The translations under genes were made by a program, and so were the position numbers. A stretch of 55,253 bases of DNA from a virus. Below the pieces are notes generated by a model that was given only the letters and a program-made list of their open reading frames with translations, was not told where the DNA came from and made no database searches. Shown piece by piece: positions 1,767-16,846 of this stretch. Where the stretch lies: positions 1 through 55,253 of IMG/VR virus record IMGVR_UViG_3300033052_000029, one strand, 5' to 3'. Numbering within the stretch: the stretch's first letter is position 1; every line of letters begins with the position of its first letter.

Positions 1767-2960
1767 ATGACCACTCCCATCATCGACCCGAAGCTGATCG
1801 AGTTCGCCACGCCGCGGCAAATCGAGTTCATCGAAGCGATCGAGCAGCACGGCGGCTACCGCAAGGCGGCCAAGGCGCTCGGGCTGTCCAAGAGCACGAT
1901 CTGCGAAGGGATCAACCGGCTCAAGGCTGCGGCGGCACGCAAAGGGTATTCGCCTGAGCACGACATGCTGCGCACGGTGCCGGATGGCTTCAAGCTCAAA
2001 GGCGTCTCGACCTACTATGACAAGGACGGCAAACCAACTGCGCAATGGGTTAAAAGCAGCGCCGACGCCGACAGGCAAGCCGAGATGATGCGCGAAGCCT
2101 TCGGCGCCATGGCGGCCGAGTTGCCGCGCCTGCCCGCCACGAAGTTTATCGGTGCGTTAGGTGACGATGACCTGCTGAACTGCTTCGTTATCACCGATTT
2201 CCATATGGGGGCCTTGAGCTGGGCGCCCGAGACCGGAGCGAGCTGGGACATCGATATCGCCGAACAGACGATCGTCGCCTGGTTCGAGCGCGCCATAGCG
2301 CAGTCGCCGAATGCCAAGACAGCCGTCCTGGCGCAGATTTCGGACCTGCTGCACTGGGATGGGTTCGACGCTGTCACGCCGGCCTCTAAGCACCTCCTCG
2401 ACGCCGACACTCGCTTCCCGAAGCTGGTCCGGATCGCCATCCGTGTGCTGCGCCGGATCATCACCATGCTATTGGCCAAGCACGAGCGCCTGCACATCAT
2501 CATGGCCGATGCGAACCACGACCCGGTCAGCCAGGTGTGGTTGCGTGAGTGGATCGCGGTCCTGTATGAGGACGAGCCGCGCGTCACAGTCGATACCAGC
2601 CCGTCGCCCTACAACGCTTACGAGTTCGGCAAGGTCGCGCTCTTCACGCACCACGGGCATAAGCGGAAGGTGACGAACGTGTCGGAGGTGTTCGCTGCGC
2701 AGTTCCGGGAGATGTTCGGGCGCACGAAGTACGCCTATGCTCACACCGGCCACCTTCATCATGTTGACGTGAAGGAAAACAACCTGATGATCGTGGAGCA
2801 GCACCGGACCCTGGCGGCGCCGGATGCCTACGCGGCGCGCGGCGGCTGGGTGACGGGCCGGGATGCGAAGGTGATCACCTACCACCGCGACTACGGCGAA
2901 GTCGGGCGCATCACGGTTAGCTTCGATATGATCCGAGGGCAGGTCAAGGAGGCCGCCTGA
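1767..2960 (+). CDS. Helix-turn-helix protein fused to a calcineurin-like metallophosphoesterase
   Basis: In this 397-residue protein, residues 15-55 form a helix-turn-helix (GGYRKAAKALGLSKSTICEG). The rest carries the metallophosphoesterase signature in order: Asp144-x-His146 in TDFHMG, Asp193 in ISDLLHWDGFD, Asn250-His251-Asp252, His295/His296/His298 in THHGHK, and the H-x-G-H pair at 326-329. Such proteins hydrolyse phosphodiesters in nucleic acids or nucleotides; the substrate here is unknown. It lies after Rz1 and before the SOS-linked gene, so it is probably expressed late. Roles in host DNA attack or packaging support are guesses. Confidence 0.8.
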   Translation: MTTPIIDPKLIEFATPRQIEFIEAIEQHGGYRKAAKALGLSKSTICEGINRLKAAAARKGYSPEHDMLRTVPDGFKLKGVSTYYDKDGKPTAQWVKSSADADRQAEMMREAFGAMAAELPRLPATKFIGALGDDDLLNCFVITDFHMGALSWAPETGASWDIDIAEQTIVAWFERAIAQSPNAKTAVLAQISDLLHWDGFDAVTPASKHLLDADTRFPKLVRIAIRVLRRIITMLLAKHERLHIIMADANHDPVSQVWLREWIAVLYEDEPRVTVDTSPSPYNAYEFGKVALFTHHGHKRKVTNVSEVFAAQFREMFGRTKYAYAHTGHLHHVDVKENNLMIVEQHRTLAAPDAYAARGGWVTGRDAKVITYHRDYGEVGRITVSFDMIRGQVKEAA

Positions 2961-2982
2961 TATACTGTATGCATGAACAGTA
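2958..2982 (+). promoter_or_regulatory. Extended -10 promoter overlapped by a full LexA (SOS) box
   Basis: The sequence TACTGT-N8-ACAGTA occupies 2963-2982, a complete 20-bp match to the classical LexA operator. It overlaps an extended -10, TGATATACT at 2958-2966, with no good -35. The ATG at 2973 lies inside the N8 of the box, 6 bases after the -10. LexA bound here would block RNA polymerase, and DNA damage would release it. Match and spacing are seen; LexA binding is inferred. Confidence 0.8.
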
Positions 2983-3236
2983 ACCCGTCACCGATGGCCT
3001 TCAAGCCACCGCTCAGCAAAGACGCGCTTCGCGACATCCAGGACCGCAATCCGGACTCGGCCGACGTGCGCGCGCTGCTATGGGAGGTCAAGCGCCTACG
3101 CGCCCTAGTGCTGCGATCGCACGACTATTTCCGGCAGACGGCGACGTCGACCACCGCGATGATGCTGGCCGATGCAATGCGGCGCGATCTGGCCGATGAA
3201 CCGGTTATTAGGGAGCAGCCGCGGTTATCTGATTAA
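2973..3236 (+). CDS. Small conserved phage protein under a LexA box, function unknown
   Basis: The product is 87 residues, or 80 if the ATG at 2994 (MAFKPPLSK) is used. The core SKDALRDIQDRNPDSADVRALLWEVKRLRALVLR is helical and resembles uncharacterised small proteins of other phages (recollection, not checked). The start codon sits inside the LexA box, so the gene should be SOS-induced and possibly leaderless. SOS-controlled small phage genes are often antirepressors (coliphage 186 Tum) or lysis triggers, which is the main reason to look at this one. It is convergent with the minus-strand gene at 3265-3987. Function is not assignable from sequence. Confidence 0.72.
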   Translation: MNSNPSPMAFKPPLSKDALRDIQDRNPDSADVRALLWEVKRLRALVLRSHDYFRQTATSTTAMMLADAMRRDLADEPVIREQPRLSD

Positions 3237-3264
3237 TTGACAGCCGAATGAATGCCGACATTAA

Positions 3265-3987
3265 TTAAGAGGTCGCGGAGGAAAAATCAGTTAATTCTGT
3301 CATTACGTCATATGCTTTGTTGCAAAGGTCTTTCGCAGCAATGTAAACTAACATTTTTTTCTGGGTTAATGGCATACCATTCTGCTCTAAGTAAGATTTG
3401 ATTTCTTCCGCCAAGCGTGAGGCCTCTTCCGACTGCCCATTCTGTATAGCGAAGTTTTGCCTCATACGCATCTTCGCTATTTCCCCACGCATGCTCCCAG
3501 CTGCAATTAGGCATTCACGATAACGGATCGTAACCGTTCCCGTTAGTTGTAAAAGTTCCGGGAAATATAGCTGTGAAAGCATTTCAAACTCATCAATCGG
3601 CGCTCCAGATGCCAGGTCTTCCCCAGCAATTGCGTTGGTGCCAACGTCGGAAGCGTGAGTTGCCAAAGCAAATCCGGCGACGATAAGTTGTTCAAGCTTT
3701 GCCCTCTTCAGGGCATTGCTTTCTCGCCTTATCCAGTCGCCATGATTGAGGGCCAGCTCTACAGCTTTAGTAGCTGCAGTCGTTTTTTCCAGATGTTCGA
3801 TGATAAGCTTAGCGTCCGCTTTAGTCGCCGCAACTTCGCCGCGTTTAGTTAGATTTGCTCTTAAATATGCTCCAGCCACTGTGCCAAGAAATGTCATGGC
3901 GAGCAAAAGCAAATAAAAAGGCCACGTTTCTCTTATAGTGGCGTTAGCGATTTCGCTAGCAAGCTTTTCTAACATTGCATCGTTCAT
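3265..3987 (-). CDS. Membrane-anchored protein of unknown function, AT-richer accessory gene
   Basis: The 240-residue protein starts MNDAMLEKLASE and has one strong membrane helix (about residues 22-44, WPFYLLLLAMTFLGTVAGAY). A long cytoplasmic helical region with amphipathic stretches follows. Codons are visibly richer in A/T than in neighbouring phage genes, and the gene faces the late operon between the lysis block and integrase. This is the classic position of a lysogenic-conversion or superinfection-exclusion moron. I do not recognise a family. Expression from the prophage state is inferred from its orientation and isolation. Confidence 0.72.
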   Translation of the reverse strand: MNDAMLEKLASEIANATIRETWPFYLLLLAMTFLGTVAGAYLRANLTKRGEVAATKADAKLIIEHLEKTTAATKAVELALNHGDWIRRESNALKRAKLEQLIVAGFALATHASDVGTNAIAGEDLASGAPIDEFEMLSQLYFPELLQLTGTVTIRYRECLIAAGSMRGEIAKMRMRQNFAIQNGQSEEASRLAEEIKSYLEQNGMPLTQKKMLVYIAAKDLCNKAYDVMTELTDFSSATS

Positions 3988-4064
3988 TCAGTTTTCTCGT
4001 TGGTGATTTATTTATTTGGTCGAATTGCGCTACTGGCGATTTGCAGCTTACTTGCCATAGAATC

Positions 4065-5282
4065 TCAGCGCCCTGCCTGCTCGCACTTCACAAGAAACTC
4101 AGCCCACAACTCGAGCGCCTGGCGCCGCTCCGGTATCTCCTCGCGCACGTCGTAAATCCCCTCCATCCCTTTCAAGGTGTGGTTCAGGGCGATCTCCGAT
4201 ATCTCGCGCGAGACGCCGAGGTTCCGCATGTGCCCTTTGGCCGTGCTGCGCGTGTCATGAGGCGTAAAGCGCCTGATGTCGATCGCGCCGCGCTTGAATG
4301 CGCTGTCGATCGCAGTCCACAGGGTCGTGTTGCCGACGTGCTTGCCCTTGTTCGGCGCCCGCCTGGCCGGCAGCACCCACTCATCGCCGTCGGCCAGTTC
4401 CCGCAGCTGCCGGAACCATGCGGCGACGGTCGGGGTGATGGGCACAAGGAAGCCGACGCGCGTTTTGACTGACTCGTCGGGCACGAACCACGTGCCGCGC
4501 TCAAGGTCGATGTGCCCCCAGCGAGCCTTGACCAGCTCGATCGATCGAACGCAGGTCGCGAGCATGATGCGCAGGGCCAGGGCGTTCTCGGTGCCGATGC
4601 TGTCGATGCCGGCCAGGAGCTTTCGCAGTTCCTCTTCCGATAGCATCACGCGCTTGCGCACCGGTGGCCGCGGGCCCAGGAGGGCGGTCAGCTTGATCCC
4701 CGATGCAGGATTGACCTTGATGAGCTGGCGCCCGATCGCGTGGTCAAACAGCTTGCTGGTCGTGGTCAGGATCCGTTTCTGAACGGTCCAGGTGCGCCCC
4801 GAGCTTTCCAGCATGTCGACAATATCCTCGGGAGATGCCGAGCGCACCTCTACGGCGCCCAGGCGCGGCAGGATCACATCGTCGAGATCGCTCTTTCTAT
4901 AGGCGACCGTCCGCACTGCGTACTGGCCGCTATCGAGCACCTTTTCTATATAATCTTTGACAAGCTCGCGCACAAGCCAGGCGCCGCGCAAGGCGAGCCG
5001 TTCCTTGCGTTTTTCCGCCGCAGGGTCTTGGCCCTTGTCAACGGCGACCCGATGCTCGGCCGCGAGCTTCCTGGCGGCTGAGAGGCTGAGGTCGGGGTAA
5101 TTACCGAGCGTGAGCTCGCGCGCGCGGCCGCCGAGCATGTAGCGCAGCACCCAGGTTGCCGTGCCGGCCTTCGACAGCGTAAAGGTGAGGCCCGCGCCGT
5201 CGGACTTGGCGACCGGATCGCCCTTGGCTACCCAGCGCCGAATCTGTATGTCGCTGAGCTGGTTGATTGCTCGTTTGGCCAT
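4065..5282 (-). CDS. int: Tyrosine-recombinase integrase, P4 type
   Basis: This 405-residue site-specific recombinase would integrate and excise the phage. The N-terminus (KSDGAGLTFTLSKAG to LTLGNYPDLSLSAARKLA) is the DUF4102 arm-binding domain of P4-like integrases. The catalytic set is visible: Arg246 in ATCVRSIEL, a Lys near 273, His342-x-x-Arg345 in PHDTRS, His368 in LNH, and the nucleophile Tyr377 in EGIYD. Repeat-rich DNA upstream (5316-5587) fits attP, and an AlpA-like excisionase gene follows on the same strand. P4-type integrases commonly use tRNA genes as attB; the core is not identifiable here. Confidence 0.95.
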   Translation of the reverse strand: MAKRAINQLSDIQIRRWVAKGDPVAKSDGAGLTFTLSKAGTATWVLRYMLGGRARELTLGNYPDLSLSAARKLAAEHRVAVDKGQDPAAEKRKERLALRGAWLVRELVKDYIEKVLDSGQYAVRTVAYRKSDLDDVILPRLGAVEVRSASPEDIVDMLESSGRTWTVQKRILTTTSKLFDHAIGRQLIKVNPASGIKLTALLGPRPPVRKRVMLSEEELRKLLAGIDSIGTENALALRIMLATCVRSIELVKARWGHIDLERGTWFVPDESVKTRVGFLVPITPTVAAWFRQLRELADGDEWVLPARRAPNKGKHVGNTTLWTAIDSAFKRGAIDIRRFTPHDTRSTAKGHMRNLGVSREISEIALNHTLKGMEGIYDVREEIPERRQALELWAEFLVKCEQAGR

Positions 5283-5315
5283 CGCTGCACCCTGTGGTGG
5301 TTACGCCTGCGGATC

Positions 5316-5590
5316 GTAGCTAGCTACAAATCTAGCTACAAATTAGGGTTGCGCTTGCAGGCTTTAAGATGAGACAACAGGATACAGCATTGCGGCCATC
5401 ACAGAGGGAAAATGCGGTAATGTGAGACAGGTAGAAACGTTCCTAGAACACACTGAGGCTTGCAGGTGATGAGCTTGAATGCGGTCATATGTGCCAGTAT
5501 TCATGCGGGTTTTGCGGTGTTTTTGTAGCTAACTGCCGCGTTAGCTACAATCCTAGCTACAAATCAGTTATGAGACAGGTTGAGACAATG
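5316..5590. other. Probable attP region with two families of short repeats
   Basis: This non-coding stretch between integrase and the AlpA-like gene is packed with short repeats. TAGCTACAA occurs directly at 5321-5329, 5333-5341, 5542-5550 and 5554-5562, and inverted at 5523-5531. TGAGACA occurs at 5370-5376, 5423-5429, 5571-5577 and 5581-5587. GTAGCTAGCTAC (5316-5327) is a palindrome. The two clusters flank about 170 bases that could hold the crossover core. The arrangement fits arm-type integrase sites and excisionase sites, but which repeat is bound by which protein is unknown. Confidence 0.65.
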
Positions 5591-5609
5591 ACGACATTGT
5601 GCGGCCTCG

Positions 5610-5783
5610 TCAGTTCTTCGGTTTGCCCGCGATCAGGCGATCGATACTTGCGCCGGTGACCCGGGTAGCCGTACCGATCTTGATCACCTCGAGTTCGCCG
5701 CGGCCAACCAGCCTGTAGATAGTCGCTCGGGACACATCCAGCTTTTTCATGGCGCTGGCTACCTTGTAGAGAATCTGTTCCAT
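5610..5783 (-). CDS. AlpA-like / MerR-type HTH excisionase or regulator
   Basis: This 57-residue protein (start MEQILYKVASAMKKLD) has the compact winged-helix layout of AlpA/excisionase proteins: KLDVSRATIYRLVGRGELEVIKIG followed by TRVTGASIDRLI. An AAGGAG ribosome site lies 6 bases before the ATG. It is the last small gene before attP and integrase on the same strand, the usual position for xis or an int activator. It would bend attP DNA and direct excision. Excisionase versus int-activator cannot be told from sequence. Confidence 0.82.
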   Translation of the reverse strand: MEQILYKVASAMKKLDVSRATIYRLVGRGELEVIKIGTATRVTGASIDRLIAGKPKN

Positions 5784-5801
5784 AGTCGCTCCTTGCTCAA
5801 A

Positions 5802-6026
5802 TTATTCTGGCTTCTTTTCGTGCACGCACCCCGCGCAGCGCGGATCCGGCGTCGTCTTTGTGTACTGGCATTCGGTCGTCATCACGTGCCGGACGTCGAC
5901 ATAGACCGGAGTCCGGTGCGGCGCACCAAAGCCATCTCGAAACGTTCCACTCCAGCCGGCTTGTGCCTGGTGTGTGACGGCGCCGGCCACCGGCCGCGGC
6001 TTGTTGTGGCAGCCGTTCAGTTGCAT
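5802..6026 (-). CDS. Small Cys-containing phage protein, unknown
   Basis: This 74-residue ORF starts MQLNGCHNKPRP. A strong AGGAGAAGGAGAG tract precedes the ATG, which decides this start over longer readings of the same frame. The C-terminus TTECQYTKTTPDPRCAGCVHEKK holds three Cys and a His, which could bind one metal ion. It overlaps the end of the upstream gene (stop at 6017) by 10 bases, consistent with coupled translation in the leftward early operon. No function is assignable. Confidence 0.65.
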   Translation of the reverse strand: MQLNGCHNKPRPVAGAVTHQAQAGWSGTFRDGFGAPHRTPVYVDVRHVMTTECQYTKTTPDPRCAGCVHEKKPE

Positions 6027-6235
6027 GGCTTCTCTCCTTCTCCTGGGTGAGCAGGAGCGGCCCCAGATTGTGCGTACTCGGCAATGATCGCGACCATTTC
6101 CTCGAACGTGTCTTCTGGCACTGCCACCATGCCATTGCGCAAGTTGAACTGGAACGGCGAGAGGAAGAATCCCCAAAACCTCTTCGGCGTGGCCTTAATC
6201 TCTTCGCGCGAGAGTTTGCAGTAGTCGTTCTTCAT
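6017..6235 (-). CDS. Small hypothetical early protein
   Basis: This 72-residue ORF starts MKNDYCKLSREEIKAT. A GAGG sequence precedes the ATG, and the start overlaps the stop of the upstream gene as ATGA (6232-6235), so translation is probably coupled. It contains an aromatic patch (KRFWGFFLSPFQFNLR) and no obvious motif. Most likely an accessory protein of the early-left operon; function unknown. Confidence 0.65.
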   Translation of the reverse strand: MKNDYCKLSREEIKATPKRFWGFFLSPFQFNLRNGMVAVPEDTFEEMVAIIAEYAQSGAAPAHPGEGEKPCN

Positions 6236-7341
6236 GCATCCTCCCCGGCTTTCGCCTCTGGTGGCTGGGGAGCGGCGGCGATTCTCATCCAGTGAGTGAC
6301 GTTGCCGGTGCTTAGCAGGTCGCACTCGAACATCGAGCAATTCACCATGTAGCGTGTGACCTCGACCCACGGCACGCCAGGGTGGCCGGGATGCTCGGCA
6401 TTGCCTACCCGGCCAGCGAAGCGCGTCACCAGCACGCGCTCGCCAGGTTCTGGCAGTTCGTCCTCGACGCTGATCCACCCGGCTTTCTCCACCTCTCCCG
6501 CAGTCGGAATGCCGGTATCGGGTGCTGGTGCAGCGAGGTTGGCGAGGATGAGCGCCTGCATCGCGGGTGATCCAAAACGGCTGTGTTCGGTTGGCGCATC
6601 AGCAGCTGCTGCTGCCTTGGTGGCAGCGCGGTAGAGCGGAAAAGGTTTGAACTCGGGCGCCCATGTGCATTCCGCGCCCCATTCGACATCAGGCGTTTCC
6701 ATCGGAGTGTGATCAAGGTTGAGCGCGCAGGCCCATGCTACCGGCTCGCCTTGTTGCGCTCGATCCGCCGAGTTATCCACAAGGCTACCGTAATTCGTTA
6801 CGGCACCATCGCCGCCCTCCGCGCGGCACCGGGTAGCCAGCTCATCGGCAAATACCGGGTTGCATTTGCCGTCGCAGTATTGCGGCAGGGCGCACCGGCA
6901 GTCGCCGTAATGGTCGATTTTGCGCGGCTCGATGCCCATGCCGTCGCAGTGATGGCACTGGTAGTTCTGGCCTTCGCAAACAGAGCACGGCGTTTGAGTC
7001 TTGCGCCATGCCGGTTCCGCGCGCAGGGCGGAATCACATCCCTCCTGCTGCGGAGTATTCTCGGAGCGATGCGCTCGATCCGCTTCTACAGCAGCACGGG
7101 CGTAGGCTTGCATCTGTTCGCTGGTGAAATAGGGCTGGCTTGCCAATTGCAGCGACTCGCCCGGCTCCTTCATCGACTCCCACACACGCACATAAATCTG
7201 CGAGGTCGGCAATTCAAGCAGCGCACCATCTGGAACGGCAGCGGCAGGAGATGCGGTGCAGAACGGGCAGGTTTCAGGCTCCCATGCGTCCGTCTCGGTA
7301 ACGTCGCCGCAGCAGTCCCATTCTTTGCGGTAGGTGCTCAT
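6232..7341 (-). CDS. Mosaic accessory protein with Cys-rich middle and C-terminal DUF551 domain
   Basis: A 369-residue modular protein. The N-terminus has two C-x2-C-like pairs (DCCGD, CPFC). Residues near 117-160 carry a DnaJ-like Cys cluster (CSVCEGQNYQCHHCDGMG). An EPVAWACALN...PLYRA segment follows, and the C-terminus is DUF551 (WISVEDELPEPGERVLV to VTHWMRIAAAP). DUF551 recurs in phage early operons and has no known activity. Modules are joined by Ala/Pro-rich linkers. It is coupled to both neighbours by ATGA or near-ATGA overlaps. Counter-defence or host-takeover roles are possible but unproven. Confidence 0.75.
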   Translation of the reverse strand: MSTYRKEWDCCGDVTETDAWEPETCPFCTASPAAAVPDGALLELPTSQIYVRVWESMKEPGESLQLASQPYFTSEQMQAYARAAVEADRAHRSENTPQQEGCDSALRAEPAWRKTQTPCSVCEGQNYQCHHCDGMGIEPRKIDHYGDCRCALPQYCDGKCNPVFADELATRCRAEGGDGAVTNYGSLVDNSADRAQQGEPVAWACALNLDHTPMETPDVEWGAECTWAPEFKPFPLYRAATKAAAAADAPTEHSRFGSPAMQALILANLAAPAPDTGIPTAGEVEKAGWISVEDELPEPGERVLVTRFAGRVGNAEHPGHPGVPWVEVTRYMVNCSMFECDLLSTGNVTHWMRIAAAPQPPEAKAGEDA

Positions 7342-8051
7342 GCCTTCTCCTTGGTGTCCGTGGTGTCTTTCGGCTGGGCCGCGATAGCTGCTTTGACGGC
7401 AGACTCGTATTCGCCGCCATGCAATTCGGTCAGCTTGTCGCCATCACACCGCACCAGTGTGAAGCGCCCGTTGAGGCTCTTCCCATCGCGCACGATGAAA
7501 CGCCACAGCGCCGCATCCTTCGCATCTACTTCTCCCGCTCCTTCCTTAGTGGGGAGAGGGACGGCGTAGACGATGCGCGCCTCGAAGTTCGGAATGCTGC
7601 TCGCGGTGTCATAGGCACGCTGATCGACGTCCTCCCATGCCATGCCGTTCGGCACCTTGGGCCGCGTCTGGTAGATCGCCACTGGCTCTGCCTGCTGTCC
7701 GGCAGGTGCTGCACCCTCGGGCCATGCGGTGCGCAAGTGGTGGATGTGCAGGACCATGATGTCGGCGTCGATGGCGCCGCCTTCTTCTAAGCCCAGCGCG
7801 TCGTGAATCTTCGTCAGGTCGTCGCAGGCGGCGCGCACCACCACTTCCAGCTGCTTCTCGCGTTCGGTCTGCCCGGCAGGTGCAGCGCTACCAGCACGAG
7901 CAAGGGCGAGCTGCCAGCCGCGCCAGTGGCCGTCTACAGCGTTGTGCTTGTAGTGCCCTGCGGGCCAGCGCTCCAGAGAGATATCGGGATTTAGCTTGCG
8001 GATTTCCGCCTCAAACTCGGCGCGGCTCTTGTTCAGTTCTTTGTTGTCCAT
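7338..8051 (-). CDS. Mosaic hypothetical early protein
   Basis: A 237-residue protein. The N-terminus (FEAEIRKLNPDISLERWPAG to HWRGWQLALA) is the short module often placed at the front of variable proteins in phage early regions. An Ala/Gly linker, a helical block (EREKQLEVVVRAACDDLTKIHDALG) and an EPVAIYQTRPK segment follow. The next segment, KDAALWRFIVRDGKSLNGRF, looks like a further small domain. Its end overlaps the start of the DUF551 gene. The patchwork suggests assembly by recombination of modules; function unknown. Confidence 0.68.
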   Translation of the reverse strand: MDNKELNKSRAEFEAEIRKLNPDISLERWPAGHYKHNAVDGHWRGWQLALARAGSAAPAGQTEREKQLEVVVRAACDDLTKIHDALGLEEGGAIDADIMVLHIHHLRTAWPEGAAPAGQQAEPVAIYQTRPKVPNGMAWEDVDQRAYDTASSIPNFEARIVYAVPLPTKEGAGEVDAKDAALWRFIVRDGKSLNGRFTLVRCDGDKLTELHGGEYESAVKAAIAAQPKDTTDTKEKA

Positions 8052-8054
8052 GTC

Positions 8055-8255
8055 TCAGTCGATCCATTTTTGTTCAAGGGAGCACCACATCACCGGCACA
8101 GCTTCGGTGACAACGTGAGCGGCAACTACATCGTCGTGCGGGTAGCCAAGGCGGTAATGTCCTTCGTCGCGCAGGGCGACCAGCGTTTCGCCTTCGTCCA
8201 GTTCGACAGTGATGCGCCGCTTGCCGCGCGCTTCAGTTTCTTTGATGACTTTCAT
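8055..8255 (-). CDS. Small hypothetical early protein
   Basis: This 66-residue ORF (MKVIKETEARGKRRITVELDEGETLVAL) has a small beta-rich appearance and no clear motif. AGAGGA lies 7-8 bases before the ATG. It is spaced 3 bases from the next gene in the leftward operon. Function unknown. Confidence 0.6.
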   Translation of the reverse strand: MKVIKETEARGKRRITVELDEGETLVALRDEGHYRLGYPHDDVVAAHVVTEAVPVMWCSLEQKWID

Positions 8256-8256
8256 A

Positions 8257-8325
8257 TCAATCCTCTTTCTTGTTGTTCGTGCGCTGCGCGCGGCCCGATG
8301 CGGTGCGATTTTTCGATGTCAGCAT
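8257..8325 (-). CDS. Possible 22-residue basic micro-ORF
   Basis: Reading MLTSKNRTASGRAQRTNNKKED on the minus strand, with a GAGGGG ribosome-site-like tract before the ATG and a stop overlapping the next ribosome site. It fills the only gap between 8255 and 8334. Evidence is limited to the Shine-Dalgarno sequence and position. Confidence 0.3.
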   Translation of the reverse strand: MLTSKNRTASGRAQRTNNKKED

Positions 8326-8333
8326 TTGGCCCC

Positions 8334-8642
8334 TCACGACCCAAGCCGACCATGCTTCGCATAATCGCGGGCAATGCACTCATCGAATCGACCGTCGTAC
8401 GGTTCTGGCTGGGCCTGCGGCGCATCGCGGGTTTCCGCCGTGTCAGCGGCACACTTCCATGCTTTGATTTCGCGCTCGGTCATGTGCATGTAGCTATCGC
8501 AGCCACACGCGGGACAAACTGATTGCGTGGCGCTATTGAACTTCGGATGCGGCACCGATTTGAGGTCGGTTTCGTAGCCGCGCCACTTGCATTTCGTCTT
8601 CCCGCAGCGGATCGGGGCAGTGCCCCATGCTGGGCGGCTCAT
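8334..8642 (-). CDS. Zinc-finger-like small phage protein
   Basis: A 102-residue protein starting MSRPAWGTAPIRCGK, with an AAGGAG site upstream. Cys13, Cys18, Cys43 and Cys46 (IRCGKTKCKWRGYETDL, then VCPACGCDS) make a rubredoxin- or zinc-ribbon-like pair of knuckles. The C-terminal third (QPEPYDGRFDECIARD) looks like a separate appended segment. Its start overlaps the stop of the large upstream gene (ATGA). Metal binding is inferred from Cys spacing; role unknown. Confidence 0.68.
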   Translation of the reverse strand: MSRPAWGTAPIRCGKTKCKWRGYETDLKSVPHPKFNSATQSVCPACGCDSYMHMTEREIKAWKCAADTAETRDAPQAQPEPYDGRFDECIARDYAKHGRLGS

Positions 8643-10618: not shown

Positions 10619-11175
10619 GCGGCAATGCCGAGGCTGTTCTTGAGCGCCTGGACGAACTTGTAGCGAACCGCGGTGGTCTGCAGGTGCTCGATCAGGCGCT
10701 CGGTGTCGCTGATCTTCTGGATGCGCCACTGCACGCCCGTCAGGCGCACCGGCGGCTGGTCGCGCCCGGCGCCGCAGTCGCTGGCGATCGACTGCTCGAT
10801 TTCGCGGATGCGCTCGAGCTTGAACATCTCGAACATCGGGCCCGGTGGCGTCCAGGCGCGAACCTGGGCGAGCACGAACTCGTATTTGCTGCGCAGCGCC
10901 GCCTTGTCCGCCTGCTTCTTGTCCCACTCGGCGCGCGCTGCGGCGTATTCCGCTTCGCATGCCTGCTCGGCGCCTTCCTCGGTCATGGCCTCGAAGAGCG
11001 TCAGTTCCAGGCGCGCCGCCACCAGCTCGGGCGAGACCGGGCCATCGTCCAGTGCGAAGTCCAGCGCCTGCGGGCCGCGCAGCGTGATCTGCGCGCCGGC
11101 CACGACGCCGCAGCGCATCAGGTAATCCTCGAAGGTTCCGCCTTGCTGAATTGCGACTGCGCATCCGATAGCCAT
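10615..11175 (-). CDS. Hypothetical early protein
   Basis: A 186-residue protein starting MAIGCAVAIQQGGTFEDYL, with GAGGA before the ATG. Predicted mostly helical, with a coiled-coil-like middle (EAEYAAARAEWDKKQADKAALRSKYE) and no recognised motif. It sits between the DUF551 gene and ninB, in the recombination part of the early-left operon, and is coupled downstream by an ATGA overlap. It may assist recombination, but that rests on location only. Confidence 0.65.
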   Translation of the reverse strand: MAIGCAVAIQQGGTFEDYLMRCGVVAGAQITLRGPQALDFALDDGPVSPELVAARLELTLFEAMTEEGAEQACEAEYAAARAEWDKKQADKAALRSKYEFVLAQVRAWTPPGPMFEMFKLERIREIEQSIASDCGAGRDQPPVRLTGVQWRIQKISDTERLIEHLQTTAVRYKFVQALKNSLGIAA

Positions 11176-11202
11176 GATGTCCTCGCTACGGTGAAAAGGT
11201 GA

Positions 11203-11625
11203 TCAAGCTTGCCGAAACACGACGCCGCGGGCGGCGCCAAACGCGGCCAAGAATTCGATGAACTGCGCCGCTTCCTTGACCGTGAAGTTGCGCGACTGGA
11301 TGCCGAGCTGCACGATGCGGCGCCCATCGAAGCTCGGTACGACCTGGCCCTCGCCATCGAGCGGCGTGCCGGCGGCGCGCATCTCGTCGGCAAACTCGTC
11401 GATGAGCAGGCGCTTCATGGATTCGTCGTCCCACTTGCGGCCGATGTGCTCGACCTGGGCGGCGATCTCGCCGATCATGGCGTGGTAGCGCATCTCCTGT
11501 GCACGCTTCTTGACCGGCTCCGAGAACACGACCATCCAGCCGGACGGCGCTTCCATGCAGAAGGCCGCAGCACTCTGGCGCGCCTGCTCGTGCACCAGGA
11601 AGAATGGGCGGCGCTGGCTGGTCAT
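11203..11625 (-). CDS. ninB: NinB-family recombination mediator
   Basis: A 140-residue protein with the NinB/Orf pattern: KKRAQEMRYHAMIGEIAAQVEHIGRKWD, then VVPSFDGRRIVQLGIQSRNF and a C-terminal FIEFLAAFGAARGV. Lambda Orf (NinB) binds single-strand DNA and SSB and replaces RecFOR in Red recombination. Its neighbours are an exonuclease and a RecT-type annealase, which completes a phage recombination set. The start shares bases with the exonuclease stop (TAATG). Confidence 0.85.
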   Translation of the reverse strand: MTSQRRPFFLVHEQARQSAAAFCMEAPSGWMVVFSEPVKKRAQEMRYHAMIGEIAAQVEHIGRKWDDESMKRLLIDEFADEMRAAGTPLDGEGQVVPSFDGRRIVQLGIQSRNFTVKEAAQFIEFLAAFGAARGVVFRQA

Positions 11626-12245
11626 TACGCGGCCCTCGCCTTGAAACGTTCGACCTGCTCATCGACCTCGCGCAGGAAGGCGCGAACCTCGGTCTCAAGC
11701 TCCGCGATGTAGGCGTCCTCGCGCATGACCAGCTCGTGGTAGAGGCGCAGGTGCTCCGGCATGCGCGGGTCGTAGCTGACAAACCACCACTTCTGGCGTC
11801 CTGTCACCCACATGCAACCTTGCACCTGCGCGCGGTGTTCGGCCGGCATGCCGCTTCGGATCGTCTCCAGGTGCACGGTCGAGTTCTTCGGGCACTTCGA
11901 CTCATAGCCGGCATCCTTGCCGATCAGGCCGTCGGGCGAGCAGCCGACCCATGGAATCGACGCATGCCGCACAAAGCTGGACTCGGTGACTATCAGGCCA
12001 GTCTCCGATTCGAAGGCCGTGCGCGCAAAAGGCTCGACATCCTTGCCCCAGCGCAGCGAGTAGGAGTCCGGTCCTTGCTCCTGGATTCCCGTCAGACGCT
12101 CGGTCACGAGCCTGAGCAGGTACTCGCCGCGCGCTGCCGCCGGCTTGCCGTCCTTCTTCTTCGACATGATCGCGGCGAAGTTTGAGGCCGTGGCATGCCC
12201 GCAGCGATCTGCGTGCCAGCCATCGGTTCGCTGTTCATTCGACAT
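11625..12245 (-). CDS. YqaJ/lambda-exonuclease-like viral recombinase
   Basis: A 206-residue PD-(D/E)xK nuclease: Asp105 in CSPDGLIG, then Glu115-x-Lys117 in YESKCPK, with the conserved upstream RTDGWHADRCGHATASNF recognition segment. It would resect double-strand ends 5' to 3' to give 3' single strands for the adjacent annealase. It overlaps the RecT gene by 11 bases, so the pair is co-translated, as in lambda Red and RecE/RecT systems. Confidence 0.9.
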   Translation of the reverse strand: MSNEQRTDGWHADRCGHATASNFAAIMSKKKDGKPAAARGEYLLRLVTERLTGIQEQGPDSYSLRWGKDVEPFARTAFESETGLIVTESSFVRHASIPWVGCSPDGLIGKDAGYESKCPKNSTVHLETIRSGMPAEHRAQVQGCMWVTGRQKWWFVSYDPRMPEHLRLYHELVMREDAYIAELETEVRAFLREVDEQVERFKARAA

Positions 12246-12978
12246 CGATAATCCCCGCTGCGCGATCTTTCAGCGCTTGAAGTTCACTTTGGAGAGCAAC
12301 ACGCTCGTGTTTGGAGAGGGCGGTCCATGCAGCCTGCAGGGCCTCGGTGCCTTCGTCCGCTTTTGCGGTCAAGTCGGCCAGCAGGCTTTCGCGACGATCG
12401 GCGTCGAGTACATGCTCGGCCTGCGCCTGGGCGGCTACTGCGGCGCCGCTGCGCTGTGTTGGCGCGCCGTTGTCGACGATGCGCTCTGCTTCATCCTGGT
12501 CAAAGATGCCGACATAGCCGAAGGCAAGGCGGGCGCACTGGATCATGGCCTTATGGCGCAGCATGCGCTTCGGGTGTGACTGCCAAGGCTGCGTGCCACG
12601 CTTACACTCGCTCAGGTACTCGGTGACCTTGACCGGGTGCGAGCGGTCCTTGCGGTAGATGATGCAGGTGCAGCCTTCCTCATCCTGCAGGAAGTCCATG
12701 CCGTCGAACTGCGGGTGCGTGTTAATGATGCGCGACCAGCCATCGACGCCCACCACCGGCACGATGCCGTTGTTCTTGTCGGGGAAGGCGTAGATTTCCT
12801 TGGTCCAGGGATTGAGGCCGTAGTTGGCGGCCACGATCAGGAGCGCCGACATTTGCGCGTCCGACACCTGGCCCTTGAAGGCGGTCTGCTTCAGGACCGT
12901 CACCAGCTCGTCCGACTGCGGAATCGACAGCTTGGCGGCCAGTTGTGAGGCTTGCGCCGTTACCAGTTGAGTGCTCAC
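12235..12978 (-). CDS. RecT/Bet-type single-strand annealing protein
   Basis: A 247-residue protein from a GTG at 12978, chosen because GAAAGG lies 6-8 bases upstream; the reading stays open further back with no ribosome site. Recognisable RecT/Bet motifs include YGLNPWTKEIYAFPDKNNGI, VPVVGVDGWSRIINTHP, and a C-terminal core ending RLAFGYVGIFDQDEAERIV. It pairs complementary single strands made by the exonuclease encoded next door. A helical, Ala-rich C-terminal tail follows. Confidence 0.9.
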   Translation of the reverse strand: MSTQLVTAQASQLAAKLSIPQSDELVTVLKQTAFKGQVSDAQMSALLIVAANYGLNPWTKEIYAFPDKNNGIVPVVGVDGWSRIINTHPQFDGMDFLQDEEGCTCIIYRKDRSHPVKVTEYLSECKRGTQPWQSHPKRMLRHKAMIQCARLAFGYVGIFDQDEAERIVDNGAPTQRSGAAVAAQAQAEHVLDADRRESLLADLTAKADEGTEALQAAWTALSKHERVALQSELQALKDRAAGIIDVE

Positions 12979-13031
12979 GATTTGCCTTTCTGCGGAGACT
13001 ATGCCCGCGTAGGTTGGAGGTTGAAGCGGTG

Positions 13032-13124
13032 CTACAGGTCGTAATACTTGAATGCCAGGAAGAGGGCGCGACTGCGATAGAAGCCATACGCGCGCCACTG
13101 GCGGTATCGGCGCAGCAGCTTCAT
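13032..13124 (-). CDS. 30-residue basic aromatic micro-protein
   Basis: MKLLRRYRQWRAYGFYRSR then ALFLAFKYYDL. The ATG overlaps the stop of the upstream membrane protein gene as ATGA, which supports real translation. It is strongly basic and aromatic, possibly membrane-associated or nucleic-acid-binding. No family is recognised. Confidence 0.5.
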   Translation of the reverse strand: MKLLRRYRQWRAYGFYRSRALFLAFKYYDL

Positions 13125-13309
13125 TTGCGCGCCACCTTGTCGAGCTTCGCGACGGCCTGCTCGATGAGCATCACCTGCGTATAGGTCTTCTGCTTCAGCA
13201 TCAGCACTTCGGCGTAGCCGACGGTGGCCCAGCAGAGCAGGGCGACGAGGCAGCAGGCGATGTAGGTGACGATGCCCATGCGCTCGTTGTTGGCGGTGTT
13301 GGCTTCCAT
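13121..13309 (-). CDS. Small single-pass membrane protein
   Basis: A 62-residue protein starting MEANTANNERMGIV. One membrane helix (about residues 11-33, GIVTYIACCLVALLCWATVGYA) is followed by a helical tail (KTYTQVMLIEQAVAKLDKVARK). The start codon shares a base with the upstream stop (TGATG at 13307-13311), so translation is coupled. It is one of three consecutive tiny ORFs here; unknown function, possibly envelope-directed. Confidence 0.6.
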   Translation of the reverse strand: MEANTANNERMGIVTYIACCLVALLCWATVGYAEVLMLKQKTYTQVMLIEQAVAKLDKVARK

Positions 13310-13419
13310 CACAGCACCCATGCGGAAACGAGCAGGGCCAGCGATGTGGCAGCGGCCAGGCAGATTGCGAGGTCGATCTTCGCGGCGTGGAGCTGGTGCT
13401 CCGAGATTGGTTTATCCAT
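13309..13419 (-). CDS. 36-residue membrane micro-protein
   Basis: MDKPISEHQLHAAKIDLAIC begins the product, and a hydrophobic C-terminal helix (LAAATSLALLVSAWVL) ends it. AAGGGGA lies 8 bases before the ATG, which favours this start over an upstream in-frame ATG at 13584. It is the first of three coupled micro-ORFs. Function unknown. Confidence 0.6.
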   Translation of the reverse strand: MDKPISEHQLHAAKIDLAICLAAATSLALLVSAWVL

Positions 13420-14067
13420 ATGCGCTCCCCTTATCATCTGCGCCGGCGCGGCCGGCTTCGGTGTTGTAGTGGTGGCCGGTGCTAATCTCCGGCTTCGTTG
13501 CCACGCGGTGCGGCCGCGATTGGTGGTGGGATCCCGGTTGAGAACTGCTACCCCACTCGACACCGCCCCCGATACCTGTTGCATGCCCTCACGGGTGGGC
13601 CACCTTTACCTTGAGCGATGCCTCGCTTTGGTCGTATCGGCGCTTCCTGTTCGCTGCGCATCAGCCTGCGCTTTCACCACAAGGGAGCCGACTGACCGGT
13701 TTTCCCCGTCCGCGCCGTAATCGCCTCCACATGCGCCCTACGGTTGGCAACATGCAGAACAATCGGCTCTCTTGTGGGCTCGTTGACGGGAGCCAGGCGG
13801 CCAGTGACGCAGGCGCGGGCCATACTGGACCAAGGGATCGTCAGGTCGGTGATCCGTCCCTTCACCGGGCTTGTACTGCGGCACCCGGCGACCGCTTGAA
13901 TCTGTCCTGCCACCACCACCACCGACTACCTGCTGTCTTTCCAGCTGCCCGGTGCACCCTCGCGCCCTAAAGGCCTCACCGAAGTGAGGTGGAGATCGGG
14001 CTTCCCAAACGCTATGCACCTGCGGCCGTTATTGACCCGACGAGCCGCTGCGGTCGACTACCGCTGA
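13420..14067. other. About 650 bp with no convincing gene
   Basis: This is an unusually long gap in an otherwise tightly packed leftward operon. On the minus strand two partial readings look protein-like but lie in different frames: a VPQYKPGEG segment within 13738-14019, then KGRITDLTIPWSSMARAC to RAHVEAITARTGKTGQ in 13674-13865. That pattern would fit one gene broken by a frameshift. A perfect 6-bp hairpin CCTCAC-CGAA-GTGAGG lies at 13974-13989. An untranslated RNA is also possible. Confidence 0.4.
13674..13865 (-). pseudogene. Possible remnant or frameshifted small gene
   Basis: From a GTG at 13865 this reads KGRITDLTIPWSSMARACVT and ends TGKTGQSAPLW. The composition is protein-like, but there is no ribosome site, and a plausible N-terminus (RRVPQYKPGEG) sits upstream in another frame. 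It may be a decayed gene or a sequencing indel. Family not recognised. Confidence 0.3.
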
Positions 14068-14322
14068 TCACTGCTGGCACTGCTCAAAACTCGGTACTGC
14101 TTGTGTCCTTTGGTATGGCTTCGCGGGCTTGTCGCGGCGCAGGGCGTCGGCTTCGGCCATCAGCTCGTTCACCAGGGCGCGGTCGATGCCCAGGCGGCTG
14201 ACGATCTCGATGCGGCCATACATGCGCTCCTGAACCCAATCCTTGGCCGGGTGCCGCATCAGCCGCATGTCGTCCAGCAGCTGGCGGGCGAAGACCTTGC
14301 CGACGTCGCTCAGGATGCTCAT
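14068..14322 (-). CDS. Small helical early protein
   Basis: An 84-residue protein starting MSILSDVGKVFARQLLDDMR, with GGAGGG before the ATG; the longer in-frame reading starts inside the previous gene. Predicted largely helical, with basic and acidic faces (QERMYGRIEIVSRLGIDRAL). It overlaps the upstream gene by 4 bases. Function unknown. Confidence 0.65.
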   Translation of the reverse strand: MSILSDVGKVFARQLLDDMRLMRHPAKDWVQERMYGRIEIVSRLGIDRALVNELMAEADALRRDKPAKPYQRTQAVPSFEQCQQ

Positions 14323-14606
14323 GCTGCCCTCCAGCTGCGACGATCGCGGGCCATCACCGGGAAGTCGCACAGGGCTCGCTCCAGGCGCTCGTTTGCCGGG
14401 TCACGCTTCACGTTGCGGTCGAGCCATTCGCCCATCTCGCTCAGCTGGTCGCGGGAGAGCAGGTCGGCCAGGTTGATCTTGGTGCCGGCCGGCGCCGCAG
14501 TCGTGACCTCGAAGCCGTTTTCCTCGCTGGCCCAGCCGTACAGGTCGAGCTTCAATTCGTCGCTGAACTCGTAGCCCTGGTAGAGCAGTTGTCCGTCGAT
14601 AGCCAT
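14319..14606 (-). CDS. Hypothetical early protein
   Basis: A 95-residue protein starting MAIDGQLLYQGYEFSDELKL, with a strong AGGAGG site before the ATG. It contains ADLLSRDQLSEMGEWLDRNV, a helical acidic segment, and has no recognised domain. It sits among the first genes of the leftward transcript, so probably expressed immediately after infection or induction. Confidence 0.68.
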   Translation of the reverse strand: MAIDGQLLYQGYEFSDELKLDLYGWASEENGFEVTTAAPAGTKINLADLLSRDQLSEMGEWLDRNVKRDPANERLERALCDFPVMARDRRSWRAA

Positions 14607-14615
14607 GGCGACCTC

Positions 14616-14759
14616 CTAGCGATCATTCGTTTGCTTTTGCACCGGGACCAGAAACCAGCCCAGCTGCCTGCGGATTTCTTCAGGGGAAGGGGGTGCGGTA
14701 CGCTGCACCTGACGTTCCTGAAGCCACTGCCTTACCTGCTGCTTGTCCGGACTCGACAT
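14616..14759 (-). CDS. 47-residue hypothetical early protein
   Basis: Starts MSSPDKQQVRQWLQERQVQR and ends QLGWFLVPVQKQTNDR. AGAGGA precedes the ATG by 7 bases. The spacing to neighbours (9 and 2 bases) fits the operon. A short helical N-terminal half is followed by a Pro-rich turn and EEIRRQLGWFL. Function unknown. Confidence 0.6.
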   Translation of the reverse strand: MSSPDKQQVRQWLQERQVQRTAPPSPEEIRRQLGWFLVPVQKQTNDR

Positions 14760-14761
14760 GA

Positions 14762-14902
14762 TCAGTTCCTCTGGCTGGTGCGGAGAACCCGCGAAATCCT
14801 GCTGACGCTGGCCTTGATGTGATCCGCAAGTGGAATCACCGCATAGCCGATGACGCAGGCCAACACGAGGGCAAGGAGGGCGTAGGCAACTGTGTTTTTC
14901 AT
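14762..14902 (-). CDS. 46-residue single-pass membrane protein, first gene after PL
   Basis: Starts MKNTVAYALLALVLACVIGY, giving one N-terminal membrane helix, and ends in a basic tail (SVSRISRVLRTSQRN). AAGGAG lies about 9 bases upstream of the ATG. As the promoter-proximal gene of the leftward operon it would be among the earliest products. Short basic-tailed membrane proteins at this place can act in host takeover or exclusion, but this is a guess. Confidence 0.6.
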   Translation of the reverse strand: MKNTVAYALLALVLACVIGYAVIPLADHIKASVSRISRVLRTSQRN

Positions 14903-14944
14903 TTGCTTGCTTCTCCTTTTCCTGAGTGCCGCGTCAATGTGTTC

Positions 14945-14984
14945 AATATATACCAGAAAATCTAGCGTTACAAGAAAAACTAGC
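14945..14984 (-). promoter_or_regulatory. Leftward early promoter (PL-like) with two operators
   Basis: On the minus strand a -35 TTGTAA (14968-14973) and a -10 TATATT (14945-14950) are separated by exactly 17 bases. Two near-identical 12-mers, GCTAGATTTTCT (14955-14966) and GCTAGTTTTTCT (14973-14984), overlap the promoter with an 18-bp period. Similar 12-mers flank the repressor/Cro interval, so these are probable repressor operators. The promoter reads into 14902 and the whole left operon. Confidence 0.78.
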
Positions 14985-15089
14985 AAAATATTTTGCGCCG
15001 TTGCTTTTCTGGCTTTTGGGGGATTGTTGCGATGTACAGACGAAAAAAATCCCGCGCTTGGCGGGATATACGGAAGGGGTGGGGCGGGA

Positions 15090-15419
15090 CTACTGGACGA
15101 TCGGCACGCCGTTCATTTCGAAGCCGGCGCAGACCTCCCTGGCGCGCGGGTCGGATCGCACCAGTGCAGCTGCTTCATCACTTGAGCTGCTGCGCGCGAC
15201 AGCCGACTGGATCGCAGCAGCGCACGCCTCTTTGTCCTTCTCGGCTTTCGCTTCATTGATTCGGCCGCCGGTGATGAGGATGCCGCCCAGCGCTGCAACA
15301 GCGACCAGGGGCAGCCACAACAGGCGCTTCGACCTGCGCCGCCTGGCGCCGCATTGCGGACAAGTTGCCGCGTCCGTGCTGATCTGCGCGCCGCATTCGG
15401 CGCATGCCGTCAAAGCCAT
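15090..15419 (-). CDS. Zinc-ribbon membrane protein
   Basis: A 109-residue protein. The N-terminal zinc ribbon has Cys6, Cys9, Cys20 and Cys23 (CAECG and CPQCG), followed by a basic stretch, a membrane helix (about residues 33-51) and an exported or cytoplasmic C-terminal part with two more Cys. GGGAGA precedes the ATG. It is the nearest minus-strand gene to the LexA box at 15557-15576 and might be SOS-regulated. Proteins of this layout are found in phage immunity regions; function unknown. Confidence 0.72.
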   Translation of the reverse strand: MALTACAECGAQISTDAATCPQCGARRRRSKRLLWLPLVAVAALGGILITGGRINEAKAEKDKEACAAAIQSAVARSSSSDEAAALVRSDPRAREVCAGFEMNGVPIVQ

Positions 15420-15532
15420 TTCGGTCTCCCTGGTGGTGGTTGAACAAGCTGGCTTATGCACGTCACATAAGGCCCGCGCACCTCGCCGGCGAAGAGTGCG
15501 AAACGAATCGCACGGTCATAGATTCCTGTAGA

Positions 15533-15576
15533 TTTACAGCCGAGAACTCGTTAAACTACTGTACATAAACACAGTA
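15533..15576 (+). promoter_or_regulatory. LexA (SOS) box over a candidate promoter
   Basis: TACTGT-N8-ACAGTA fills 15557-15576, a second complete 20-bp LexA operator. On the plus strand it covers the -10 (TACTGT, 15557-15562) of a promoter with -35 TTTACA (15533-15538) and an 18-base spacer. Minus-strand promoter elements in the same place are weaker. A plus transcript would run antisense through the Arc-like gene toward 16132. A minus transcript would express the zinc-ribbon protein. The box is clear; the direction is uncertain. Confidence 0.75.
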
Positions 15577-15621
15577 TTGAACTGATCAAAAACTGAGCGA
15601 TCCTGATACCCCGAATCGGCA

Positions 15622-15635
15622 TAACAACGTTGTTA
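15622..15635. repeat. Perfect 14-bp palindrome, probable operator
   Basis: TAACAACGTTGTTA is a perfect palindrome in the gap between the SOS box and the Arc-like gene. A symmetrical site of this size suits a dimeric regulator such as the Arc-like protein encoded next to it. Binding is inference. Confidence 0.5.
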
Positions 15636-15725
15636 CAGCTTGAGACAATGGCCGCTAAACATTTGTTGCCTTTCGTTCAGAATTGGACTAGCTTTATGAG
15701 GAATCGCCTGAATATTCAAGCGCTT

Positions 15726-15959
15726 CTACTGACCTCGAAGATGAGTCAGCACTTCGCGAAGCATCATCTTCAGTTCTTCGTTCTGCCTCTTCAGTTCGTT
15801 CAAGGGCGACGTGTTCAGGCGGGCCAGCATCTCGGCGTTGAGCGAGTGTCCGTTGCGCTCCGCAGCGCTTACCAGCTCGGCGTGCAGACCGGGCGGCACG
15901 CGGATCGCGGTCTTTATATGGTCCTGCTGTTTTGGTTGTTGTAGGGGCGGTTTGTTCAT
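15726..15959 (-). CDS. Arc-like ribbon-helix-helix DNA-binding protein
   Basis: A 77-residue protein starting MNKPPLQQPKQQDHIK. It has the Arc/CopG layout: a beta strand (IKTAIRVPP), then two helices (GLHAELVSAAERNGHSLNAEMLARL), with a heptad-like C-terminal helix. GTG at 15962 is a possible alternative start. It lies between a perfect palindrome (15622-15635) and an inverted repeat (16000-16018), both good candidate sites for its dimer. It is likely a secondary switch regulator, comparable to P22 Arc. Confidence 0.8.
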   Translation of the reverse strand: MNKPPLQQPKQQDHIKTAIRVPPGLHAELVSAAERNGHSLNAEMLARLNTSPLNELKRQNEELKMMLREVLTHLRGQ

Positions 15960-15999
15960 CACCCAATTTTTTCACGTGGCCAAGTAATACCTGGCTAAG

Positions 16000-16018
16000 T
16001 GCCTTCAACATGAAGGCA
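16000..16018. repeat. Perfect inverted repeat TGCCTTCA-N3-TGAAGGCA
   Basis: Eight-bp arms at 16000-16007 and 16011-16018 lie between the Arc-like gene and the small plus-strand ORFs. It could be an operator for the Arc-like protein or an RNA hairpin in its leader. A second hairpin-capable stretch, GTGTGGGA/TTCCTACAC, lies at 16079-16098. Confidence 0.55.
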
Positions 16019-16131
16019 ACACAAGCGTGGTAATTGGTGAGTATTTGACTGATCTCCCTCATGTAATATGGGTCAACGTGTGGGATTTTTCCTACACAGC
16101 GTGTCGGACAAATTACTACTTGGAGGACGCC

Positions 16132-16203
16132 ATGAGTAAAGTAAGCGCTATGCCGAAGACAGGCCGAGCACCCGTCAATGAACGCTTTGCTCTGCTACCA
16201 TAA
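16132..16203 (+). CDS. Possible 23-residue leader peptide or micro-ORF
   Basis: MSKVSAMPKTGRAPVNERFA then LLP and a stop. A strong TTGGAGGA site lies 6 bases before the ATG, much better than the ribosome site of the next ORF 5 bases after its stop. It could be a short protein or couple translation of the downstream ORF. Confidence 0.4.
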   Translation: MSKVSAMPKTGRAPVNERFALLP

Positions 16204-16208
16204 TCACG

Positions 16209-16472
16209 ATGAGCGCCCTCATGACAAACGACGAAATAGACGAACAGCGCGCACTGAATTCACTGCGCACGATGGACAGGCGCAAGCGCGCCGAGATGCT
16301 TGCTGTACTTGATGCCATGGCGAAGGCCTTCCCCAGGCCGGCGCTCGCCATGGCTAAGAAAGCTTCACTTACCCTTGTGGTCAATGGCGGAGAGGTCGGC
16401 GTCCGGCAGGGCGTCCAGCATGACCCTCAGCGAATGCTTCCCGCTCTCCGTCTTAGCACGGTAGGCGCTTAG
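16209..16472 (+). CDS. Small helical protein overlapping the repressor 3' end
   Basis: An 87-residue ORF. MTNDEIDEQRALNSLRTMDR to MAKAFPRPALAMAKKAS is helical and protein-like, while the last third is antisense to the repressor gene and looks less so. An internal ATG at 16221 is an alternative start. It has no ribosome site and may depend on the upstream micro-ORF. It is convergent with the repressor, so transcription here could reduce repressor expression. Confidence 0.45.
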   Translation: MSALMTNDEIDEQRALNSLRTMDRRKRAEMLAVLDAMAKAFPRPALAMAKKASLTLVVNGGEVGVRQGVQHDPQRMLPALRLSTVGA

Positions 16473-16763
16473 CAAGGCAGCCTCATCCTCCATAACCCAC
16501 TGGAGGGTGGGCGCGCCGCGTCTTCCTGGACCTTCCTGCGCGGAAGGTCCGCTTCCCTCGCCAACTCCAGTCATAAGCCACTCCGGGGTAGTCCCTAGCA
16601 CCTCGGCGACCCGCTGCATCCGATCCCGTTTGGGTGCGGTGCCGCCTTCCTTTTCCCACTGCTGAATAGTCTGCCAGACCACGCCAACCTCTTTGGCGAA
16701 GGCCTCCTGGCTCGAGAAGCCGCGCTCGATGCGCTTCTGCCTGATGCGTTGATGAATGCTCAT
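16365..16763 (-). CDS. Phage repressor, XRE-family HTH without S24 peptidase domain
   Basis: A 132-residue protein starting MSIHQRIRQKRIERGFSSQE. It has a Cro/C1-type HTH in the first 60 residues (QEAFAKEVGVVWQTIQQWEK, then LGTTPEWLMTG) and a short Ala/Glu-rich tail. It is too short for the LexA-like S24 self-cleavage domain, and no Ser/Lys dyad motif is visible. The -10 TATAGT (16770-16775) is 6 bases from the ATG, so the mRNA is probably leaderless. Two operator-like 12-mers (16779-16790, 16819-16830) lie in the divergent promoter region. Confidence 0.85.
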   Translation of the reverse strand: MSIHQRIRQKRIERGFSSQEAFAKEVGVVWQTIQQWEKEGGTAPKRDRMQRVAEVLGTTPEWLMTGVGEGSGPSAQEGPGRRGAPTLQWVMEDEAALLSAYRAKTESGKHSLRVMLDALPDADLSAIDHKGK

Positions 16764-16769
16764 CTCGCA

Positions 16770-16846
16770 ACTATACAAAGCAAAACTAGCATCTGCACCA
16801 CAAAAATTCCTTGTGTTTGCTAGATTTTCTAGTACACTATAGGTCA
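16770..16846. promoter_or_regulatory. Divergent repressor/Cro promoter region (PRM/PR-like) with operators
   Basis: Leftward: -10 TATAGT on the minus strand (16770-16775), with no clear -35, 6 bases before the repressor ATG. Rightward: -35 TTGTGT (16811-16816), 16-base spacer, -10 TACACT (16833-16838), 7 bases before the Cro ATG. Operators: GCTAGTTTTGCT (minus strand, 16779-16790) and GCTAGATTTTCT (plus, 16819-16830). The latter is part of the symmetric CTAG-N5-CTAG at 16820-16832. They match the PL operators. Confidence 0.72.

Follow-up and report, generated by a model that had tools for sequence, protein, structure and literature searches.

Introduction

LexA-controlled antirepression of non-cleavable repressors has been established for the Gifsy prophages and for phages 186 and N15 (PMC3121763), and several unrelated phages trigger induction through LexA (PMC9437464). 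Gifsy-1, -2 and -3 encode the antirepressors GfoA, GftA and GfhA, and their non-cleavable repressors are GfoR, GtgR and GfhR (PMC3121763). In coliphage 186 (Tum) and phage N15 (AntC), phage genes that lie outside the immunity region are reported to be under a LexA box, and the repressor is not cleaved (cited in PMC3121763). In the Salmonella phage SPC32H, the small antirepressor of the Rep/Ant pair is reported to act without repressor cleavage, and the phage is listed among those using LexA (cited in PMC9638917 and PMC9437464). Here, we analysed a viral record of 55,253 nucleotides (IMG/VR IMGVR_UViG_3300033052_000029, hereafter the window), which we assign to a temperate phage whose host is Massilia-like. 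The window encodes a 132-residue repressor without an S24 peptidase domain and contains two full LexA operators, box 1 close to the repressor gene and box 2 at the start of a gene for an 87-residue protein beside the integrase gene. Comparison with related phages singles out box 1 and a specific small gene convergent with the repressor gene, and provides evidence from outside the enteric bacteria that, when a cleavable repressor is lost, the immunity region of the phage retains or acquires a LexA operator.

The immI region of P22 combines Arc with an antirepressor, and in the SinR/SinI system a helix-turn-helix (HTH) repressor with a helical tail has a small partner. As in P22 immI, the window has a second regulatory unit next to a ribbon-helix-helix protein of Arc type, but it has a LexA box instead of an Ant-type protein. 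Its repressor, like SinR, is an HTH domain with a helical tail, which could serve as a binding site for a small partner. Shared with Gifsy are a small S24-less repressor of DicA-like kind (136 residues in Gifsy), predicted LexA control of phage transcription and a small protein gene outside the immunity region. However, the corresponding small gene of the window is not tied to the repressor type, the LexA box that is so tied lies inside the immunity region, and no sequence match to an antirepressor was found in the window. Unlike in 186 and N15, no Tum or AntC homologue was detected in the window and the cargo behind box 2 varies between related phages; unlike in SPC32H, the window gave neither a sequence nor a fold match to a solved antirepressor. 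A LexA operator that matches the host motif does lie at a phage promoter, as in Gifsy, 186 and N15, and LexA binding to it is predicted.

An earlier reading of the window from its letters alone (the sequence-only reading) had proposed that host LexA represses phage genes and that, upon damage, one product or an antisense RNA inactivates the repressor, and had recognised no described system with these parts. This is true of the parts only. As far as searched, the module, the fact that it recurs with several repressor types, and the cargo slot are undescribed, and a library search on LexA, prophages and Burkholderia-type hosts yielded no paper on the module. The principle is already known from Gifsy, 186 and N15 (PMC3121763).

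The repressor and the two LexA operators

Pfam assigns the repressor (16365–16763, − strand) to HTH_19/HTH_3 and finds no S24 peptidase domain in it or anywhere in the window, which separates it from the cleavable repressors of the Lambda/P22 type. The AlphaFold model comprises a confident HTH domain (residues 1–67), a disordered linker (70–91) and two tail helices (92–117). Both analyses confirm the sequence-only description of an HTH with a short tail and support a non-cleavable repressor; we conclude that it is not cut by the RecA-stimulated S24 mechanism. The HTH model overlays the P22 c2 and SinR domains, SinR being a fold neighbour. The DicA model PRK09706 matched the repressor with an E-value of 8e-11 but at 42 bits, under its NCBIfam cut-off of 101, and the repressor was not placed in the DicA/GfoR-like family. 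The closest relatives (L073–L076) share 68–73% identity over the full length. In two other members of this clade (L158 and L196) the DNA-binding half has been exchanged while the tail is the same as in the rest of the clade, an arrangement that would fit a partner reading the tail and suggests that the tail is the part that has to be retained.

Box 1 (15557–15576) and box 2 (2963–2982, + strand) are the only full LexA operators in the window. None of 100 dinucleotide shuffles of the window contained any copy of TACTGTN8ACAGTA, and box 2 and box 1 scored 27.9 and 30.1 with a LexA weight matrix, the next site in the window scoring 2.9, a gap of 25 bits. The earlier proposal of two full operators at phage promoters was therefore borne out. 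Close relatives of the 87-residue protein gene are found in Massilia, Oxalobacteraceae and Herminiimonas genomes. The same motif occurs six to eight times in two Massilia genomes, where it precedes, among others, DnaE2-like and DinB-like open reading frames (ORFs; neighbours judged by eye), and the phage boxes are therefore probably of the kind read by the host LexA.

A LexA box beside S24-less repressors

We compared LexA boxes across related immunity regions, as the sequence-only reading had proposed. Of 17 S24-less phages, 12 have a box no more than 2 kb from the repressor, eight of these forming the window's clade, whereas none of 24 S24 phages has one there (P 8e-7), counting exact core matches only, with some records inspected just around the repressor and with related records that are not independent. 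The association holds without the window's clade (4/9 versus 0/24, P 0.003) and when the clade is counted once (P 0.007). In the four closest relatives the box is about 1.1–1.3 kb downstream of the repressor start, a position matching box 1, and three further clade members (G044, the same as L158; G047, the same as L160; and L196) carry it at the same place, giving seven close relatives with an equivalent box.

Three other repressor types, all lacking S24 (G042, G045 and G046), show the order of repressor, small convergent ORF, Arc-like gene and LexA box as well. These phages were found through the gene for a 96-residue protein described below and were therefore not selected for this feature. 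In G045 and G046 Pfam finds no HTH in the presumed repressor, and position is the sole basis for its assignment. In G028 the convergent ORF, which overlaps the 3′ end of the repressor gene, has a box immediately upstream of it. Taken with the position of box 1, these comparisons suggest that it is the stronger wire of the two and that it probably helps to induce the phage.

A half site resembling the phage operator lies about 28 nucleotides beyond the box in relatives (ACTAGATTTTGTTGC; L073:7169, L074:7174, L075:7179; L192:2098) and may indicate that LexA and the phage repressor exert control together. We did not build on this because the window copy is weak (score 9.9, versus 20–23 for true operators).

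Genes on either side of box 1

On the side facing the repressor, box 1 is followed by the Arc-like gene and by a small convergent gene of an 88-residue family (16221–16472, + strand; an ORF start is possible at 16209), which has an antisense overlap with the repressor 3′ end. There are two 87-residue ORFs in the window, at 2973–3236 and 16209–16472, both on the + strand, and it is the latter that is conserved with the repressor. Its product is 45–51% identical to the versions of the four closest relatives, among which substitutions outside the overlap fall mostly in third codon positions. The convergent gene tracks the non-cleavable repressor across relatives and is a candidate for LexA control. 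A transcript from box 1 towards the repressor would be antisense to the Arc-like gene, then include the convergent gene and finally extend, again in antisense, into the repressor gene. A TA(C/A)ACT hexamer abuts the box on the strand towards the repressor in the clade and in G042; the latter has TTGAAA-16-TACACT at the box edge, facing the repressor. This layout favours the antisense path of the sequence-only reading as a candidate.

On the repressor strand, most of the clade has behind box 1 the gene of a small protein that is presumably exported. In the window this is the 109-residue zinc-ribbon protein (15090–15419, − strand; PF13240), which has a putative transmembrane helix and whose C-terminal domain is presumably exported; its membrane anchoring was read off the sequence rather than computed. 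A protein pattern search of viral contigs found no relatives, and homologues were later located by position. The complete architecture of zinc ribbon, membrane helix and conserved domain is found in the window and L196, and the C-terminal domain (DKxACAxxIQ...RKVCxGxEMNGxPII) also in lipoprotein-like ORFs of L073–L075. Another outer domain lies behind the box in L076, and an unrelated lipoprotein-like ORF in G045. The gene is absent from G042 and G046 and reduced to remnants in G047, yet the box is retained in all three. The exported protein is therefore probably not the reason for box 1 and appears to be a dispensable, optional partner. The zinc-ribbon, Arc-like and 87-residue ORFs all exist as the sequence-only reading described them, but the zinc-ribbon protein does not suit the role of inactivator considered for it: it seems to be anchored in the membrane, and some relatives that retain the box lack it or have a broken copy.

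A putative SOS cargo slot beside the integrase

Box 2 overlaps the start codon of the 87-residue protein gene (2973–3236, + strand). An extended −10 element, TG-A-TATACT (2958–2966), runs into the operator, within which the ATG falls; the message is therefore probably leaderless. A profile match and an alignment with the conserved DVRALLWE core place the protein in phrog_32761, and its structure model is all-helical with a predicted local distance difference test score of 75. The gene lies between a DNA repair exonuclease-like gene (1767–2960, + strand; phrog_704, E 5e-133) and that of a tyrosine integrase (4065–5282, − strand; PF00589, PF13356).

A LexA box at the start of the gene is conserved in most of 22 viral and seven bacterial relatives. 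Most of the viral relatives have the box across the start or immediately in front of it, and in a few it is degenerate; in L016, L017, L023 and L024 it is upstream of an apparent operon. The gene is near the contig end in most records. A 96-residue protein unrelated in sequence shows the same box-at-start arrangement in seven of eight relatives, and its gene precedes the 87-residue gene within one operon in L017. The four closest repressor relatives carry the 96-residue protein or ImuA in the slot, not the 87-residue protein. ImuA (NCBIfam NF033429, E about 1e-62) is behind a LexA box in G024 and G026 (L127:2941–3666, L129:1216–1959). In G024 it sits between the same exonuclease neighbour and an integrase-like gene, and no second mutasome gene (ImuB, DnaE2) directly follows it. 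A Dam-like adenine methylase lies behind a LexA box near the 87-residue gene in three viral records (L016:7185–7973, L006:10177–11067, L068:5813–6601) and in a Massilia aurea genome (L144). Box 2 thus probably serves a slot for interchangeable SOS cargo genes at the end of the prophage, and a role as induction switch is unlikely. Since the slot carries exchangeable SOS genes, ImuA and the Dam-like methylase among them, prophages of this kind may shape the damage response of their host.

L006 holds two copies of the 87-residue gene (4249–4524 and 8001–8252), each with its own LexA box, and one copy is disrupted. A 240-residue protein encoded between the 87-residue gene and the integrase gene in the window (3265–3987, − strand) is a possible further cargo gene, with no Pfam match above cut-off and none in PHROGs.

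Alternative readings of the two operators

The explanation we tentatively prefer, while granting that it may well be wrong, combines a non-cleavable repressor with box 2 as a cargo promoter and box 1 as the induction wire. DNA damage would lead to SOS cleavage of LexA and open both boxes. Box 2 would yield cargo, here the 87-residue protein, and the product of box 1 would disable or out-compete the repressor, opening the left and right early promoters. The favoured product is the transcript towards the repressor, which would bring the convergent gene together with RNA antisense to the Arc-like and repressor genes. Several points weigh against this explanation. LexA binding, the direction of transcription and the inactivation of the repressor are all predictions. 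Five S24-less phages (G030, G034, G035, G039 and the record of L093) have no box near the repressor. Consensus promoter scores at box 1 favour neither direction overall, being equal or better on the other strand in several phages. In most of the clade a plausible exported-protein gene also follows box 1 and could be the whole purpose of the box. The convergent gene is weakly alike across repressor types (26–31% over short stretches). We also considered whether the 88-residue convergent protein mimics the repressor tail as a SinI-like decoy, and rejected this; a profile comparison did not support similarity between the protein and the tail (near 1% probability).

Both boxes could instead serve nothing but accessory SOS cargo, with an envelope protein behind box 1 and the 87-residue protein behind box 2, and induction would take another route or be spontaneous only. 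This is a credible reading, if not a probable one: the box 2 cargo is interchangeable, S24 phages, which have no need of a LexA wire, retain the box at the slot, and box 1 has an exported-protein gene behind it in most of the clade. It leaves unexplained why only S24-less phages have the box on the repressor side and why this box persists without the exported protein. That protein might itself be the SOS effector, for example in lysis timing or superinfection exclusion, with induction merely indirect. Its domain is conserved in five phages including the window, and G045 has a different lipoprotein-like ORF behind the box; its losses in G042, G046 and G047, its replacement in L076 and the predicted location of the conserved domain outside the cytoplasm, away from the repressor, make this very unlikely. 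We regard it as rather doubtful that box 1 represents a portable LexA-gated immunity module, in which LexA would control a transcript from the end of the lysogenic region into the repressor gene, delivering a small convergent protein and an antisense RNA at once, and which would have been joined to a number of non-cleavable repressors unrelated to one another.

The sequence-only reading had also named the 87-residue protein encoded at 2973 as a possible inactivator. It would then be a LexA-controlled antirepressor of the 132-residue repressor, like Gifsy GfoA or 186 Tum, and in size, LexA control and a site outside the immunity region it does resemble GfoA and GftA (PMC3121763); it is also the only apparently cytosolic product of the window directly under a LexA box. 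However, an S24 repressor is present in 12 of 16 records longer than 30 kb that carry its family, and phrog_32761 members are absent from all 17 repressor-relative records searched, the four closest included. The protein thus does not track the non-cleavable repressor across relatives, as a small LexA-controlled inactivator would, and is therefore probably not a dedicated one. Fold searches of PDB and BFVD matched its model to nothing below an E-value of 0.4, a PDB sequence search gave no significant hit, and neither fold nor sequence matched a known antirepressor. We dropped it as main inactivator and consider an antirepressor role quite unlikely. Of the original proposal, the non-cleavable repressor and two predicted LexA-controlled units stand, together with a comparative link of box 1 to S24-less repressors, but without this protein as the inactivator. 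The 96-residue protein, which occurs in six S24-less and two S24 phages and is lacking in the window, is a weak candidate for inactivator in the phages that carry it.

Layout of the immunity region

The region reads, in order, left operators, terminator, zinc-ribbon gene (−), box 1, Arc-like gene (−), convergent gene (+), repressor gene (−), right operator, Cro gene (+) and the gene for a CII-like activator (+). The two left operators of the phage repressor (14952–14966 and 14970–14984, − strand) lie over the leftward early promoter and are kept in L073–L076. An intrinsic terminator (15049–15067, − strand) closes the zinc-ribbon gene ahead of this promoter. The right operator (16819–16833, + strand) is a perfect CTAG-N5-CTAG palindrome between the repressor gene and that of a Cro-type protein of the YdaS family (16846–17091, + strand; PF15943, E 6e-12), which is followed by the CII-like activator (17305–17886, + strand; phrog_163, E 2e-17).

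The Arc-like protein (15726–15962, − strand) matches PF03869 at 23.5 bits, against a cut-off of 20.4, and has homologues at the equivalent position in relatives. Upstream of its gene lies the palindrome GCCTTCA-ACA-TGAAGGC (16001–16017; GCCTTCAACATGAAGGC), the sole exact match in the window, which is also found in six close relatives and is likely the autoregulatory operator of the Arc-like gene. The viral record also contains a tRNA-Tyr gene with anticodon GTA (27368–27459).

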